Assembly (NCBI GenBank): GCA_008087055.1
Contig: VIEA01000002.1
Location: 334,764 to 398,763 of the forward strand
Source of the DNA: Gammaproteobacteria bacterium LSUCC0096
GTDB lineage: Bacteria > Pseudomonadota > Gammaproteobacteria > Pseudomonadales > Litorivicinaceae
Direction: 5' to 3'
DNA length: 64,000 nt
Positions within the stretch are counted from its first letter, which is position 1, and each line of letters opens with the position of its first letter. Shown here piece after piece: positions 2,927 to 15,882 of the stretch. Position numbers and translations under genes: made by a program. A model generated the notes under the pieces. It was not told the origin of the DNA. It did not search any database and saw only the letters and a program-made list of their open reading frames with translations.

Positions 2927-5419
2927 TTGTCTGACACAACAGTAAAACAGCTGGCCACACTCGTTGGTATTCCGGCTGAACAATTACTCTCTCAGATGAC
3001 AGGAGCAGGGATCGATAAGTCGTCACCTGAAGACGTCGTTACTGATGATGAGAAACAGAAACTCCTTGCACATATTCGTTCAGGACAAGCGAAAGTCTCT
3101 GCAGAACCCGCCAAAGTGACGTTGCGTCGTAAATCGACGTCAACAATTAAGGCTGGTGCTGGTGCAGTGAATGTGGAAGTTCGTAAGAAACGTACTTATG
3201 TTCATAGGGACTTAACTGCTGAGGCAGAAAAGCAGCGCGAAATTGAGGAAGCGAAACTACGCGAAGAGCAGGAAGCTGAAGAGCTTGCTCGCCGTGAGGC
3301 TGAGCAAGCAGCGCTTGATGCTGAGGTGGGATCTGCTACTCCGGAAGAAGCGCCAGTTGTCGAAGAGGTCGTAACTATTGTTGAAGAAGTGGTCGTTGAT
3401 CCAGTGGTCGTGGAGCCACCTCCGCCACCCAAAGAGGATGATGGTCGTCGACACAAGAAGGACCCGCATGTGCGTCGCGACCGGCCTATCGACGATGATG
3501 GACCGCGTCGTCATGGTAAGCCTGCTGGGAAGCGTGATGACAAGCGTGGAAAACTCGTACCAGCTGACGATGAGCGTGGACCTAAAATGCGTGGTAAGCG
3601 CAAGCCGGGTAAGGCCGCTGAAGAGCTGTCTTCACACAAATTTGAGAAGCCAGCGGCACCAATCATCCGTGAAGTTAAGATTTCAGGGCCTGTGACTGTT
3701 GCCGAACTGGCAAGTCAAATGGCTGTGAAATCAGGTGAGCTCATCAAGATTTTGATGAAGATGGGCGTTATGGCAACGATCAACCAGGTGCTTGATGAAG
3801 ATACCGCAGTTCTTGTGGTTGAAGAGATGGGTCACAAAATTGAAGTTGTTGCGGATGATGCGCTCGAGCAATCCGTGCTTGATGACTATCAAGAGCTGAA
3901 AGGCGAGCGTACGGCGCGTGCACCAGTCGTTACAGTCATGGGTCATGTTGACCATGGTAAAACGTCGCTCCTTGATCGGATACGTAAATCCCGTGTTGCA
4001 GCTGGGGAAGCTGGTGGGATCACGCAACACATCGGTGCGTATCACGTCGACACTGATAACGGCATGATCACCTTCATTGACACTCCAGGCCACGCAGCGT
4101 TTACAAGTATGCGTGCACGTGGTGCTCAGGTAACTGACGTAGTCATTCTTGTGGTCGCAGCTGACGACGGTGTGATGCCTCAGACAGAAGAAGCTGTTCA
4201 GCATGCGCGCGCAGCTGGCGTCCCAATTGTTGTGGCGGTCAATAAAATTGATAAAGAAGAAGCAGATCCCGATCGCGTGAAGACTGAGTTGGCTAGTCGC
4301 GAAGTTATTCCAGAGGATTGGGGTGGTGATGTGCAGTTCATACCTGTGAGTGCACATACAGGCGAAGGTATTGAAGCCCTTCTTGAGGCGGTATTGCTGC
4401 AATCTGAACTATTGGAGTTAACAGCTGTTCATGAGGGTCCTGCCCGAGGAACAGTTGTGGAATCGCGTCTTGATCGCGGCCGAGGTCCGGTTGCGACTGT
4501 GCTCGTACAAAATGGTCTTTTGAAAGTTGGTGATGCCATTCTTGCGGGTGAGCAGGTTGGTAAAGTCCGTGCATTGGTGGATGAAAACGGCAAACAGATC
4601 AAGCAAGCCGGGCCATCAATTCCAGTTGAGATTCTCGGTCTCTCAGGCACGCCTGATGCCGGTGATGAACTCATGGTTCTCGAGAATGAGCGTAAAGCGC
4701 GTGAAGTCGCTGAATTCCGTTCAGAACGAACTCGAGATGCTGAACACAAGCGTCAGCAAGCACAAAAGCTCGATCAAATGTTTGCCAATATGGAAGCCGG
4801 TGAAGTATCTAACCTCAACATCGTTTTGAAAACTGATGTGCGAGGCACACTTGAAGCGTTGTCTGCGGCGCTCCTAAAGCTGGCGACTGACGAAGTTCGT
4901 GTGAACCTAATCGCTCAGGGTGTTGGCGGAATTACCGAGTCAGATGCAACGCTTGCTTCATCGGCTGGGGCAATCGTCTTAGGCTTTAATGTGCGAGCGG
5001 ATGCGGGTGCCCGTCAGGTTATCGAGCGCGATGGTATTGAGCTACGTTACTACAGTGTTATTTATGACATTGTTGATGACGTCAAAGCCGCAATGTCGGG
5101 TCTTCTTGCGCCTGAGCTTCGTGAAGAAATTGTGGGTGTGGCAGAGGTTCGCGATGTCTTTAATTCACCAAAATTCGGTCAAATTGCTGGCTGTATGGTG
5201 GTTGAGGGAATTGTTTACCGGAATAAGAAAATCCGCGTACTGCGCGATAACGTTGTGATTTACGAGGGCGAGCTTGAGTCTCTCCGTCGATTCAAAGACG
5301 ATGTTAACGAAGTTCGTAACGGTACCGAGTGCGGTATTGGCGTTAAGAATTACACGGATGTGAAACCGGGCGACAAAATCGAAGTATTCGATGTTCGTGA
5401 GGTCGCACGGAAGATCTAA
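2927..5419 (+). CDS. infB: Translation initiation factor IF-2
   Basis: IF-2 is the GTPase that delivers initiator fMet-tRNA to the 30S subunit. The 830-residue protein has an N-terminal IF2_N domain, a long charged low-complexity linker (Glu/Val-rich then Pro and Arg/Lys-rich, about 90-240), a second IF2_N-like segment, the G domain with GHVDHGKT near residue 341, DTPGH and NKID, and the C-terminal tRNA-binding domains. The start is TTG, placed 6 bases after a strong GGAG that overlaps the nusA stop; no ATG gives a family-like N-terminus. It abuts nusA and overlaps rbfA by one base. Confidence 0.97.
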
Positions 5420-5790: not shown

Positions 5791-6746
5791 TGGGTAAAGG
5801 CAACAAGGGTCGCAATCTTAATGGGATCCTCATTGTGGATAAGCCTCAAGGTCTCACATCTAATGGTGTGGTCAGCCGTCTAAAGCGGTGGTCTAAAGCC
5901 AAAAAAGTTGGTCATACCGGGGCGCTCGATCCGATGGCCACTGGTGTCTTGCCGATTGTTTTTGGAGAGGCGGCGAAGTTCAGTCAATACGGCCTTGATG
6001 CCAATAAAGGGTATCTTGCTCGTGTCCAATTGGGTACGGCCACTGATACGCTTGATGCAGATGGCAATGTCGTTCTCGTCAGACCCATTCCAGAGTTGTC
6101 TGAGACGAGGATTTTGGGCGTGTTGGCTGGTTTGACTGGACCGCTGATGCAGGTACCTCCGATGGTATCGGCTCTAAAATATCAGGGCCAACCGCTTTAT
6201 AAGTTGGCTCGTCAAGGACAGGAAATCGATCGACCGCCGCGTGCGATTCATATCTTTAATAATGATCTTTTACAGTTTGATGCGGACCATGGATGGATCG
6301 ATATCCGCGTCCGCTGTTCCAAAGGGACCTATATCCGGAGCCTTGCTGAATCGATTGGTGAAGCGCTAGGAACTGCTGCGCATCTGAGTCGTTTGCGGCG
6401 TGATCTGTCGGGCGGATTTTCTCTAGAACTCGCACACACATGGAGCGCGCTGGAAATACTTCAAGAGAGTGACCCAGAGACGATTGATTCATCACTGTTA
6501 CCTGTCGATGCAATTTTGAGCCATTTTCCCTCGGTCGATCTGACCGAAAATGAGTGCATGACATTGATTCAAGGGAAAAAAGTTTCTGGAAAAGGTCTTG
6601 ATGTATGCGATACTGTGCGCGCTTATTTTGCAGGAGGTCCATTCATTGGACTGGTGTCCGTCGATTCTGATGGTGTAATCGCTGCAAAACGGATGTTATC
6701 TCCGGCTGCTGCTGGCATGCGCGGCAGTTCGGATTCTGGCCATTAA
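5790..6746 (+). CDS. truB: tRNA pseudouridine-55 synthase TruB
   Basis: TruB converts U55 in the T loop of tRNAs to pseudouridine. The 318-residue protein carries the catalytic motif [12 protein letters not shown] with Asp47, the strand motif KGTYIRSL and a C-terminal PUA-like RNA-binding region after about residue 250. It begins one base inside the rbfA stop codon and is followed by rpsO after 31 bases, the canonical order. No missing residue was seen. Confidence 0.98.
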
Positions 6747-6777
6747 GGTCGGGCATGCCATTGTAGGAGTAAAGAAA

Positions 6778-7047
6778 ATGGCTTTATCAGTAGAGAAAAA
6801 AGCTGAAATCGTTGAGAAGTTTGGCCGTGGCGGAAACGACACGGGTTCACCGGAAGTCCAGGTCGCCCTGTTGACTGCCAACATTGAAGCCCTTCAGGGT
6901 CACTTCAAGAAGAACATTCATGACCACCACAGCCGTCGTGGTCTGATCCGAATGGTCAACCAACGTCGTAAGTTACTCGATTATCTGAAGTCAAAGGATC
7001 TGGGCCGTTATTCAGCATTGATCAAGGAACTTGGTCTCCGCCGTTAA
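6778..7047 (+). CDS. rpsO: 30S ribosomal protein S15
   Basis: S15 is a primary 16S rRNA-binding protein of the small-subunit platform. The 89-residue length is exact for the family, and the conserved segments [19 protein letters not shown] and [21 protein letters not shown] are present. The start ATG has a strong AGGAG site 8 bases upstream. A terminator follows at 7063, so rpsO and pnp are probably partly uncoupled, as in other gammaproteobacteria. The 30-base upstream gap leaves little room for a long autoregulatory leader. Confidence 0.98.
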
Positions 7048-10935: not shown

Positions 10936-11409
10936 CTATGTATCTATTCGAACCAGTGTGGATGAATCGTAGCGGTTTCGGTCGAGCTGGTCACCTATTG
11001 GCGTGATTCCACTGGGTATTAGGTCAAAAAGCGGGATTGCCACAAATGTGCGATTAAACAACTCCTTGTGTGGAATGGTGAGTTCGGGAGTGTTTATTCG
11101 GAGGTTTCCGTAGAACAGAATATCGATGTCGATTGTCCTCGGTCCCCAATGTTGAGTTTTCACTCGCTGTTGTTGCTGTTCAATGTCTTGGATCGTTATC
11201 AGTAATTCTTCGGGAGTTAGTGACGTGTACCCCGAAATGACTGTATTCACAAAATCAGGCTGATCCTGAGGTCCGAGAGGTTTGGATTGGTAAAGTTGCG
11301 CACATTCAATCGTGTTGACCGTTTGAGCTAAGGATCGAATAGCTTGTTTGATTTGAGCGACAGGGTCGTTGAGGTTTGAACCCAGTGCCAAGAACACCTG
11401 ACTAGTCAC
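10936..11409 (-). CDS. folK: 2-amino-4-hydroxy-6-hydroxymethyldihydropteridine pyrophosphokinase
   Basis: FolK transfers pyrophosphate from ATP to the pterin precursor of folate. The 157-residue reading starts with GTG at 11409, giving MTSQVFLALGSN, the family N-terminus; the longer open frame to 11643 runs inside pcnB and is rejected. Signature blocks WGPRTIDIDILFYG and PHKELFNRTFVAIPL are intact. The start overlaps the pcnB stop by 8 bases. Folate-dependent panB follows directly, giving a metabolic link. Confidence 0.95.
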   Translation of the reverse strand: MTSQVFLALGSNLNDPVAQIKQAIRSLAQTVNTIECAQLYQSKPLGPQDQPDFVNTVISGYTSLTPEELLITIQDIEQQQQRVKTQHWGPRTIDIDILFYGNLRINTPELTIPHKELFNRTFVAIPLFDLIPSGITPIGDQLDRNRYDSSTLVRIDT

Positions 11410-12733
11410 GGCGCTTGGATTTTCTGCGTGGCCGACGTTTTGGTGGCTCGTCTTGGTCGTCTTTGACTGAGGCGATAAGATCACGTCGCTGTGCTTCATC
11501 CGCAATTTGATATTGCGTCCACCATTCACCGAGTCCGCCAGGGATCTCGCCGGAGCGCTCGCGTAGCAGCAAGAAGTCATAGCCAGCTCGAAATCTGGGG
11601 TGTTCAAGGGTTGAGTCTGGACGACGACCGTGTCGCTTCTCAAGCTTCACCTGGAGCTCCCATATTTCTCGGATGGTGATACTGAATCGCTTTGGTATCG
11701 CGATAAATTGCTGATTGAAGTCGAGCGTTTCGGAGCACGCGATTGCGAGCGCCTGTGTTCGTCCATGCCCTTCAGCCTCGAGTTCCTCCCAGCGATTCTG
11801 AACCTGAGGCCAGTGCAGGGCTGCATATAAGAATGCGGGAGTGACTGATTTGCCTTCGTTCAGCCGCGTGTCTGTATTCAATAGGGCGAGTTCGATCAAT
11901 CGTTGGTAGTGTGGATCGTCGGCTTCGCTCAACAGGGCTTCTGTTTGCGGAAAAAGTGGCCGTAATAGCTCATACTTTACGAGCTCCGGAAATGTTGCCT
12001 GACCATGACCTGCCTGAAGCAATTTCAAAATTTCATCAAACAGCCGAGATGCTGACACATCTCTCAAAAGTGGTGCGAGACGCCGAATCGGCTCCGCTGT
12101 TTCTTCTTCGAGCTCGAGGCCAAGTTTGCCAATAAATCGAATAGCTCGGAGCATGCGAACGGGATCTTCTCGGTAGCGCGTTTCGGGATCACCGATTATG
12201 CGGATAACGCCATCTTCTAGATCATCGTAGCCGCCAACAAAATCCAATACCTCATGGTTTGAAGGATCGTAGTAAAGGGCATTCATCGTAAAGTCACGAC
12301 GAACCGCATCGTCTTCGACAGTACCAAACACGTTATCGCGGACGAGCATACCTGAAGCGTTTGCTTGTCTTAGATGGCTATTTTCCGCTGAGCCTCTGAA
12401 CGTTGTGACCTCGATAATTTCTGGTCCCATACGGACATGGACAATCTGAAAGCGTCTCCCGATGATGCGGGATTTACGAAAGAGCTTTTGCACTTCCGCA
12501 GGCTTGGCACTTGTTGCAACATCGAAGTCTTTAGGATGCTTGCCGAGTAATAAATCTCTAATTCCACCACCAACAAGATAGGCCTCATAGCCCGCCTGCT
12601 GCAGGATTTCGATGACGCGAAGACTGCCGTGGGAAAGGTCTCGGTGATTAATTCCGTGATATTCCTGAGAGATGACGTCTTTAAATACGTCAATACTCGG
12701 CGAAGATTTCTTTTTAAACACCGAAAACAACAC
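11402..12733 (-). CDS. pcnB: Poly(A) polymerase I
   Basis: PcnB adds 3' poly(A) tails that promote RNA decay. Key motifs are YLVGGGIRDLLLG, the metal-binding Asp pair in KDFDV, and IGRRFQIVHV, which distinguishes poly(A) polymerases from CCA-adding enzymes; the C-terminus is a basic Arg/Lys tail. The open frame extends to 12814, but that part crosses the terminator at 12782-12803 and is unlikely to be translated. I place the start at GTG 12733 (443 residues); TTG at 12730 is equally possible. An N-terminal MLFSVFKKK-like sequence resembles Pseudomonas PcnB. Confidence 0.92.
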   Translation of the reverse strand: MLFSVFKKKSSPSIDVFKDVISQEYHGINHRDLSHGSLRVIEILQQAGYEAYLVGGGIRDLLLGKHPKDFDVATSAKPAEVQKLFRKSRIIGRRFQIVHVRMGPEIIEVTTFRGSAENSHLRQANASGMLVRDNVFGTVEDDAVRRDFTMNALYYDPSNHEVLDFVGGYDDLEDGVIRIIGDPETRYREDPVRMLRAIRFIGKLGLELEEETAEPIRRLAPLLRDVSASRLFDEILKLLQAGHGQATFPELVKYELLRPLFPQTEALLSEADDPHYQRLIELALLNTDTRLNEGKSVTPAFLYAALHWPQVQNRWEELEAEGHGRTQALAIACSETLDFNQQFIAIPKRFSITIREIWELQVKLEKRHGRRPDSTLEHPRFRAGYDFLLLRERSGEIPGGLGEWWTQYQIADEAQRRDLIASVKDDQDEPPKRRPRRKSKRRD

Positions 12734-12779
12734 AAGACCCCATTGGCATAAAGAGGGAATGATACCAGAGCCAGGCAAT

Positions 12780-12804
12780 AAAAAAGGGGCTTTCGCCCCT
12801 TTTG
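12780..12804 (-). terminator. Strong terminator ending the CrcZ-like RNA, just before pcnB
   Basis: Read leftward, AAAAGGGGC pairs with GCCCCTTTT (12803-12795 with 12790-12782) around GAAA, and the descending arm runs into six T (12785-12780). On the other strand the T-run is only four. It lies 46 bases before the probable pcnB start, so pcnB expression by read-through from upstream must pass this hairpin. Confidence 0.9.
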
Positions 12805-13054
12805 ATAATCGCACGCTAGTGATTATTTTTATTGTTCGTACGTCTTAAAATTACCTTTCAGTGTGCAATCTCAGTTCCAAGTTGCATTCCATACAACCAA
12901 GGCCTCAGCTTACGCTTTGTTATAATTATCGGCCCGAGGAAGCAATCCTGCTTCCCTGAAACCCAGTTCTCACAGTGAACCGTAATCTCATTCAGCTATG
13001 TTGTTATTGTTGTCGCTGTTTTTGTTCTTTTTTATTGGTCTTATCACGAACACC
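12780..13054 (-). ncRNA. crcZ: CrcZ-like small RNA (Hfq/Crc decoy), about 275 nt
   Basis: Seen directly: a sigma-54 promoter at 13080-13064 predicts a start near 13054, no reading frame follows, and a strong terminator lies at 12804-12780. The RNA would carry A-rich motifs of the AAnAAnAA type at 13036-13018 (AATAAAAAAGAACAAAAAC), 13013-12999 (ACAACAATAACAACA) and 12836-12823 (AACAATAAAAATAA), plus a hairpin at 12956-12939 (GGAAGCA/TGCTTCC). Known: in Pseudomonas the CbrB-activated sRNA CrcZ lies exactly between cbrB and pcnB, and its A-rich motifs sequester Hfq/Crc and relieve catabolite repression. Inference: this is the ortholog or functional equivalent. It is shorter than the roughly 400-nt P. 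aeruginosa RNA. Confidence 0.85.
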
Positions 13055-13063
13055 TCTAAGGAC

Positions 13064-13080
13064 TGCACATGCTGTGCCAA
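13064..13080 (-). promoter_or_regulatory. Sigma-54 promoter of the CrcZ-like RNA
   Basis: TTGGCACAGCATGTGCA contains the -24 GG and -12 GC dinucleotides with exactly the required 10 bases between them, and TGGCAC matches the consensus fully. It points leftward, away from cbrB, into a region with no gene before pcnB. Confidence 0.9.
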
Positions 13081-13176
13081 CTTGTTCCAGGTGCAATAAA
13101 TGCTTGATTTAAGTCACTTTCTGAGGGGCCTACTTAGGATCTTTAGACCTAGGGCTTAGGTCGTGGAGAGAAAAAC

Positions 13177-13215
13177 TGTTACCTACAGTTACTTTTGGTA
13201 ACGCTTTGGTGTTAC
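13177..13215. promoter_or_regulatory. Upstream activating sequence with TGTTAC/GTAAC half-sites (CbrB binding)
   Basis: Half-sites TGTTAC (13177-13182), AGTTAC (13187-13192), GTAACG (13198-13203) and TGTTAC (13210-13215) are spaced 10-12 bases apart, about one helical turn each. TGTTAC-N15-GTAACG is close to the inverted repeat reported for Pseudomonas CbrB. The array is 124-160 bases upstream of the predicted start of the small RNA, a normal enhancer distance for sigma-54 activators, and overlaps the cbrB stop codon. Confidence 0.75.
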
Positions 13216-14573: not shown

Positions 14574-15443
14574 CTATATCGAAAGGGTATTCGCTTCTGA
14601 AGCCTTTACAATGATTGAAAGGAAATTGTCCAACGAAAGAAAATAATCGAGCCAAATCTCTGCGCTATCTATTTCGCTAGGCGTATCGTTTAGTAACAAT
14701 AAACGCGCAATGGTGGCAAAACTGTGTCCTGGTTGATCCCAATCGACGGGGGTCGCAAAGGTTTGCTTTGATAGCTTCGCCCCATCGGCGCCTACTAAAA
14801 CGGGGAAGTGTCCGTATGATGGGCTCTGATACCCCAAAAGCTTCGATATGAAACATTGCATGGGGGTTGACTCGAGAAGATCGATCCCTCGAATCACGTG
14901 GGTGATCTGATCAATGTGTTCATCGATAGCGCAGGCCAGCTGATAGGCAAAAAGGCCATCCCGTCTTTTTATAATGAAGTCACCAGGTGGACTCATTCTC
15001 CTAACTGGTGTGAATAGATCTTGTATGTCGAGGTCGATACCATTTGTGTCAATCCTTACTGCGTTGCCCTCGATCAAAGCTTGCCCGATCCGATGACGAC
15101 ACATGCCGGGATATGGTCCACGCGGCAATGATTTACGGGTGCAGTCACAGGAATACAGAAGACTCTTACTCTCTAAGCTTTTAAGAGCTAAAGCATAATC
15201 TGAGATCCTTTCAGTCTGAAATCGAACGGCTTCAGAGGGTTTGAATCCAAACGCATCAAGGCATTTGAGAATTGAATCGGAATAGATGGCTTTACACCGT
15301 TTCTCATCCAGATCATCAATACGGATCAACCATTCACCATTATGGTGTTTTGCGTGGATGTAGCTGACGAGTGCAGCAAAGATGGACCCTAGATGCAACG
15401 GGCCGGTCGCAGAGGGTGCAAACCGACCACGGTACGGAGCCAA
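14574..15443 (-). CDS. gluQ: Glutamyl-queuosine tRNA(Asp) synthetase
   Basis: GluQRS is a shortened GluRS paralogue that attaches glutamate to queuosine at position 34 of tRNA-Asp. The protein has the HIGH-like motif FAPSATGPLHLGS, a zinc site built from CDC with a downstream Tyr and Cys (YPGMC), and the KMSKS-like KLSKQ. The open frame reaches 15497, but that part lies inside dksA; I choose TTG at 15443 (289 residues), 5 bases after the dksA stop, because the family starts just before YRGRFAPS. dksA-gluQ is a widespread pair. Confidence 0.92.
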   Translation of the reverse strand: MAPYRGRFAPSATGPLHLGSIFAALVSYIHAKHHNGEWLIRIDDLDEKRCKAIYSDSILKCLDAFGFKPSEAVRFQTERISDYALALKSLESKSLLYSCDCTRKSLPRGPYPGMCRHRIGQALIEGNAVRIDTNGIDLDIQDLFTPVRRMSPPGDFIIKRRDGLFAYQLACAIDEHIDQITHVIRGIDLLESTPMQCFISKLLGYQSPSYGHFPVLVGADGAKLSKQTFATPVDWDQPGHSFATIARLLLLNDTPSEIDSAEIWLDYFLSLDNFLSIIVKASEANTLSI

Positions 15444-15447
15444 GTGT

Positions 15448-15882
15448 TTAGGCGCCTGTTTGTTTTTCGCGAAGCTCGTCGAGCGTCTTACAGTCAACGC
15501 ACTGCGTAGCGGTTGGACGTGCTTCTAGACGACGCAAACCGATTTCGATTCCACAGGTTTCACAAAAACCGTAATCGTCGTTCTCAATCGCTTCGAGTGT
15601 CTTATCGATTTTCTTAATCAACTTACGTTCACGATCCCTGGTGCGAAGCTCGAGGCTAAACTCTTCTTCTTGGGTGGCACGATCGGCGGGGTCAGCAAAA
15701 TTCGCAGCCTCTTCTTTCATGTGCGAAACGGTGCGGTCGACTTCTTCCATAAGATTCCGCTTCCATTGCTCGAGAATCTTCACGAAGTGTTCACGCATCG
15801 CATCACTCATGTACTCTTCATCTTTCGATGCTTGGTACGGATCAACGTAGCCTAAGAGTGATTCTTGTTTATTCGTTGCCAT
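15448..15882 (-). CDS. dksA: RNA polymerase-binding transcription factor DksA
   Basis: DksA binds the polymerase secondary channel and, with ppGpp, controls stable RNA and amino-acid promoters. The 144-residue protein has a coiled-coil with the tip motif DPADRA (Asp64 and Asp67, both functionally essential in E. coli) and a C-terminal C4 zinc finger (CETC and CVDC). All four Cys are present, so this is the zinc-containing form. It is divergent from the aminotransferase gene, with an 89-base gap holding both promoters. Confidence 0.97.
   Translation of the reverse strand: MATNKQESLLGYVDPYQASKDEEYMSDAMREHFVKILEQWKRNLMEEVDRTVSHMKEEAANFADPADRATQEEEFSLELRTRDRERKLIKKIDKTLEAIENDDYGFCETCGIEIGLRRLEARPTATQCVDCKTLDELREKQTGA

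Follow-up and report, generated by a model that had tools for sequence, protein, structure and literature searches.

The 64,000-nucleotide stretch of DNA analysed here (the window) carries, between cbrB and pcnB, a predicted small RNA that by position, promoter and composition is the CrcZ counterpart of Litorivicinus, and that by score is not a member of the Rfam family RF01675. In Pseudomonas, CrcZ is a ‘sponge’ RNA that frees genes from food-preference (catabolite) repression. The best explanation of the whole, to which we give a probability of roughly 85%, is a sigma-54-driven decoy for Hfq/Crc that is activated by a kinase-free CbrB. New here are the order-wide occurrence of the arrangement, the loss of the kinase together with an Asp-to-Glu change in the receiver, a four-way-junction module inside the RNA, and the survival of the RNA without its activator.

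The host genome measures 1.94 Mb, and its nearest named relatives are Litoricola/Litorivicinus. Genes are ordered dksA-gluQ-cbrB-RNA-pcnB, which matches the position and the neighbours of CrcZ, and location between cbrB and pcnB is itself a defining feature of RF01675. In Pseudomonas, cbrA sits between gluQRS and cbrB. The gap of about 480 bases between cbrB and pcnB that a preceding sequence-only reading had described agrees with the open reading frame ends, which put the cbrB stop at 13212 and the probable TTG start of pcnB at 12730. Just past the terminator, at window positions 12755-12775 on the minus strand, lies a conserved GGCTCTGGTATCAT / TGGTATCAT, a candidate extended -10-like box for pcnB. 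Elsewhere in the window, a ribosomal S15 leader (RF00114, 42.6 bits) was detected upstream of pnp at 6729-6834 on the plus strand. The features of the locus are collected in the table.

Table. Features of the cbrB-pcnB locus, in window coordinates.
Feature	Position	Strand	Basis
gluQRS, upstream neighbour	14574..15497	-	NF004314 above cut-off
cbrB, receiver + AAA+ (GAFTGA) + helix-turn-helix regulator, 442 aa	13212..14540	-	Pfam Response_reg, Sigma54_activat; aligned to 29 orthologues
CbrB-type R subsite GTAAC, overlapping the cbrB stop	13211..13215	-	compare published R subsite GTAACA (PMC6296734)
CbrB-type F subsite GTTAC	13198..13202	-	compare published F subsite TGTTAC (PMC6296734)
CbrB-type R1 subsite GTAAC	13188..13192	-	subsite scan
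CbrB-type R2 subsite GTAAC	13178..13182	-	subsite scan
IHF-type site AATCAAGCATTTA, 9/9 to WATCAANNNNTTR	13097..13109	-	shuffle p reported as 0.00 of 300
sigma-54 promoter TGGCACAGCATGTGCA	13064..13079	-	pattern match and conservation in relatives
predicted CrcZ-type non-coding RNA, about 274 nt	12780..13053	-	Rfam CrcZ 19.9 bits, E 0.0047 (below gathering threshold); conserved in relatives
hairpin 1 (GUUC/GAAC), A-rich loop	13024..13051	-	covariation not significant
hairpin 2 (CAGC/GCUG), A-rich loop	12993..13018	-	covariation; 0/1000 shuffles reach the observed pairing
four-way-junction module, 143 nt, genus-specific	12847..12989	-	covariation; model R1
module arm P3, A-rich internal segment	12901..12934	-	many relatives have AANAANAA here; the window copy is degenerate
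hairpin 5 (CGUACG/CGUGCG), loop AACAAUAAAAAUAA	12810..12842	-	covariation; 0/1000 shuffles
Rho-independent terminator AAAAGGGGCGAAAGCCCCTTTTTT	12780..12803	-	sequence; conserved across the genus
pcnB, poly(A) polymerase, downstream neighbour	11402..12730	-	TIGR01942 533 bits; longer open reading frame up to 12814

In the promoter region, TGGCACAGCATGTGCA (13079-13064) is the sole match to TGGCACN6TGCW in the 64 kb, where 0.27 would be expected. The perfect spacing previously claimed for this sigma-54 promoter is confirmed, the GG/GC distance being exact; the -12 element reads GTGC, where TTGC would be ideal. From the position of this promoter, the 5' end of the RNA is predicted at about 13053. 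Additionally, we found elements that had gone unmentioned, namely four CbrB-type subsites, a perfect IHF site and the folded module at 12989-12847. A sigma-54 promoter with upstream CbrB subsites, a feature of CrcZ (RF01675), is thus present. CbrB-type subsites were observed 92 times against 10.4 expected, and they agree with the published TGTTAC/GTAACA; at crcZ, crcY and PP2810, CbrB subsites are TGTTAC in forward and GTAACA/GTAACg in reverse orientation, and IHF assists (PMC6296734). The spacing of the subsites differs, with 10 bp here compared to 20-25 in Pseudomonas. The interval that separates the CbrB subsites from the IHF site contains CCTAGGTCTAA (window 13140-13165, minus strand), which is partly conserved genus-wide, even where the sigma-54 promoter has been lost.

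The RNA itself contains three A-rich blocks on the minus strand, AATAAAAAAGAACAAAAA (13036-13019), AACAATAACAA (13011-13001) and AACAATAAAAATAA (12836-12823). Over the 420 bases past cbrB, overlapping matches to AANAANAA number 9, as opposed to 1.1 in dinucleotide shuffles and 0 on the antisense strand, and the three A-rich clusters of the earlier description are present; several A-rich CA motifs are also a feature of RF01675. The blocks near both ends of the RNA form hairpin loops, and covariation was detected in two of the three stems, the stem of hairpin 1 being too invariant for it (422/1000 shuffles, not significant). In every genus member examined the A-rich loops are present, while stems and flanks vary, so that the conservation of these motifs in related strains, which had been proposed as a check, was found. 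The stable hairpin and the T-run terminator that had been described are both there, and apparently they are a single element. A terminator scanner did not list AAAAGGGGCGAAAGCCCCTTTTTT, probably because the T-run is consumed by A-T pairing within the stem. As for the MFE fold, in which the 5' end of the RNA pairs to the 3' hairpin, it is not preferred, because relatives such as G011 retain local pairing in its place.

The central part of the RNA folds into the four-way-junction module, with 44 pairs and 98.9% of cells paired; none of 500 shuffles was as good, and compensatory changes affect 18 pairs vs 7.2 in shuffles. A covariance model of the module (R1) matched 19 of 22 genus genomes, once each and always at this locus. 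It gave no second site in any genus genome and no match in 36 other genomes. Identification of the module as a known RNA failed, as no other Rfam match of note was obtained and R1 is silent outside the genus. The most conserved stretch of the whole RNA is formed by the P1 strands of the module, a long irregular helix that hardly varies and so may bind a partner.

Comparison to known RNAs was carried out with Rfam. CrcZ was the best match and its whole model was aligned, with 19.9 bits and an E value of 0.0047 (901 bases searched), a score that fails the RF01675 gathering threshold of 95 bits; the covariance search proposed earlier therefore returned CrcZ on top and stayed below 95. As a positive control, the RNA of the Pseudomonas-like G043 (locus L023) scored 306.8 bits. 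At the gathering threshold, Rfam found nothing in the window beyond tRNA and the S15 leader. In common with CrcZ of Pseudomonas and Azotobacter, the RNA occupies the cbrB-pcnB slot behind a sigma-54 promoter with CbrB subsites and IHF site, and it has several AANAANAA blocks, a terminator, and Hfq and Crc in the genome. Unlike those RNAs, which span about 400-426 nt, it has 274 nt, bears its A-rich loops on hairpins, includes the extra 143-nt junction and lacks CbrA. Control by the CbrA-CbrB pair, another feature of RF01675, is not found here, in that CbrB is encoded and CbrA is absent from the genome and the genus. CrcY and CrcX are sibling RNAs in Pseudomonas, CbrB/sigma-54-driven decoys of Hfq/Crc that are encoded elsewhere in those genomes; here, the module has no second copy in the genome. 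Overall, the RNA most likely works like CrcZ.

Regarding the activator, the window CbrB resembles CbrB and other NtrC-type enhancer-binding proteins in its receiver-AAA+(GAFTGA)-HTH architecture and CbrB-type C-terminus, it lies in the gluQ/pcnB neighbourhood, and its GAFTGA loop and Walker motifs are intact (they are changed in G011, G004 and G014). It differs from them in the receiver, where the phosphorylatable Asp is replaced by Glu50 and the switch Thr by Val, and in the missing gene for a cognate kinase. Glu occupies the phosphoacceptor position in 14/14 assessable CbrBs of the genus, and Asp in 13/13 assessable CbrBs outside it. No CbrA-like kinase was detected in any of 22 genus members: the host genome (G000) gave none at E<=1e-15, and the 21 others gave generic kinases at most. 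The kinase-less CbrB of the sequence-only reading is thus supported, and the accompanying Asp-to-Glu change is an addition to it. In most other families of the order, CbrA is encoded directly before cbrB. The kinase before cbrB in the sister genus G024 (L017 2-1111) has 364 aa, one membrane helix and PAS/HisKA/HATPase domains, and it lacks the SLC5 transporter region that CbrA has; the contig starts just before it, which makes a longer protein possible. This short kinase is possibly an intermediate in kinase loss.

CbrB of P. putida is reportedly barely phosphorylation-dependent (PMC6296734), and in an NtrC-like regulator D54E is used to mimic phosphorylation (PMC6211767). Because of these two precedents, the window CbrB is most likely locked on or phosphorylation-independent through its Asp-to-Glu receiver, and it would then be constitutively active. 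Since the switch Thr is lost as well, the receiver may instead be dead and Glu50 a remnant that mimics nothing.

Important insight came from genus members in which the system has come apart. The sigma-54 promoter is absent in six of them (G019, G014 and the clade G011/G004/G016/G007), in three separate losses according to a PcnB tree whose deep branches are weakly supported, and control by CbrB is consequently not universal in the genus. All six retain the RNA and the module. After two of the three losses CbrB decayed and the RNA stayed: GAFTGA became KKLTAA in G011 and EELTSV in G004, CbrB of G014 has GAFTNA and an altered Walker B, and cbrB is a pseudogene in G016 (L063) and a deletion remnant in G007 (L065), in both cases beside an intact RNA. 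An intact CbrB AAA+ domain was found in 12/12 assessable members with the promoter vs 1/6 without it (Fisher p = 0.0007, shared ancestry uncorrected). In the clade G011/G004/G016/G007, the RNA is preceded by TGGTTTACT or TGTTTTACT, a candidate extended -10-like promoter box. Promoter loss following loss of rpoN was rejected as an explanation, as rpoN is kept in G004, G011, G014 and G019. On the simplest reading, activating the RNA is the main job of CbrB, and the RNA is what selection keeps.

The arrangement extends far beyond the genus. Of the other families of the order, 30 could be assessed, and 24 of these, the Pseudomonas-like G043 among them, have a sigma-54 site downstream of cbrB with three or more A-rich clusters behind it, as do Halomonas ramblicola and Cobetia amphilecti. 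The arrangement is partial in G032, which has two weak clusters, and in G030, whose promoter is degenerate, and it is missing downstream of cbrB in G025, G031, G033 and G040. Summed over 30 cbrB downstream regions, AANAANAA occurs 235 times in sense and 16 times in antisense, with 35.6 in shuffles. Among 20 genomes with a CbrB-like C-terminus from a class-wide search (19 of them outside the order), none had the promoter plus three A-rich clusters. Thus the locus is not the exception outside a Pseudomonas-type setting for which it had been taken. A 2022 review describes the arrangement in Pseudomonas and Azotobacter only, as unique to Pseudomonadaceae (PMC8871633), and in the open-licence literature, covered mostly as titles and abstracts, we found no report outside that family. 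In three families, two sigma-54 promoters stand in tandem between cbrB and pcnB, with A-rich clusters after each (L029 of G029, about 3032 to 3560; L191 of G053, 389-945; L192 of G052, on the reverse strand), apparently duplicated CrcZ-type RNAs.

The partners that a decoy of this type would need, rpoN, hfq and a true crc, are all found in the host genome, as the search suggested earlier had anticipated for crc and hfq, and crc and hfq are retained across the genus. The earlier proposal of a CrcZ-type decoy thus survived those of its refuting checks that computation can run, and is supported. Crc resembles solved Crc structures (4jg3/4f1r, Catabolite repression control protein, E about 1e-56; the best PDB match, 2myi, carries the name Exodeoxyribonuclease III in its PDB file), and its gene has the crc neighbourhood, adjoining pyrE, rph and gmk. 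In a 381-gene sample, the A-rich motifs that had been anticipated at ribosome sites were seen near some starts, among them those of a TRAP solute receptor, a class-V aminotransferase, an ABC permease, a PhyH dioxygenase and others. One operon was followed across orthologues, and in most of them the TRAP solute-receptor gene has the motif just before the ribosome site. These motifs are compatible with Hfq/Crc control and serve as leads to candidate targets only. The order members G041 and G047 have neither a close CbrB orthologue nor a Crc match, possibly a co-loss of the whole pathway.

From these parts a mechanism can be proposed. CbrB would bind the GTTAC/GTAAC subsites where its own gene ends, IHF would bend the DNA, and CbrB would activate RNA polymerase-sigma-54 without a kinase. 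The resulting small RNA would show several stem-borne A-rich (ARN)n loops, with one more A-rich segment presented by the genus-specific four-way junction in its middle, and would sequester Hfq/Crc. This titration would lift translational repression of catabolic and uptake genes bearing the same motif at their ribosome sites.

Other explanations have to be weighed against this proposal. The RNA might no longer be mainly an Hfq/Crc decoy, with the four-way junction as its functional core, binding a protein or a small molecule, and the A-rich loops just recruiting Hfq. The exceptional conservation of the P1 strands and the persistence of the RNA with its module after loss of CbrB speak for this; however, the A-rich loops are kept in all genus members examined despite change in stems and flanks, and the genus retains crc and hfq, so we consider it unlikely. 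Doubtful to a similar degree is a further idea on the module, that with the kinase gone sensing shifted into the RNA, the module gating the A-rich loops in response to a ligand or a protein and the RNA itself being the sensor of carbon status. If this were true, such a sensor would work in some species without any CbrB.

Preservation of the two-component logic, with CbrB phosphorylated or controlled by an unlinked kinase, appears very improbable: genus members do encode other histidine kinases, seen as weak matches, but the search of G000 for a CbrA-like kinase at E<=1e-15 was empty, and the receiver has Glu in all 14 assessable cases and Val for the switch Thr. Less probable still is a reading in which the stretch serves pcnB as its 5' leader and no independent RNA exists. 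It does lie directly upstream of pcnB, yet a strong terminator and then the conserved TGGTATCAT box intervene, and in other families the RNA adjoins cbrB with pcnB hundreds of bases further off.

Because the arrangement is present in most sampled families, a large group of marine and soil bacteria may have inherited Hfq/Crc catabolite control by way of an RNA sponge from a common ancestor. In the lineage of Litorivicinus this system has undergone a natural dissection, in which the kinase was lost, Asp became Glu, the promoter was lost and the regulator decayed, and the RNA was kept. Selection thus seems to act on the RNA, and the lineage offers a new RNA fold for study.
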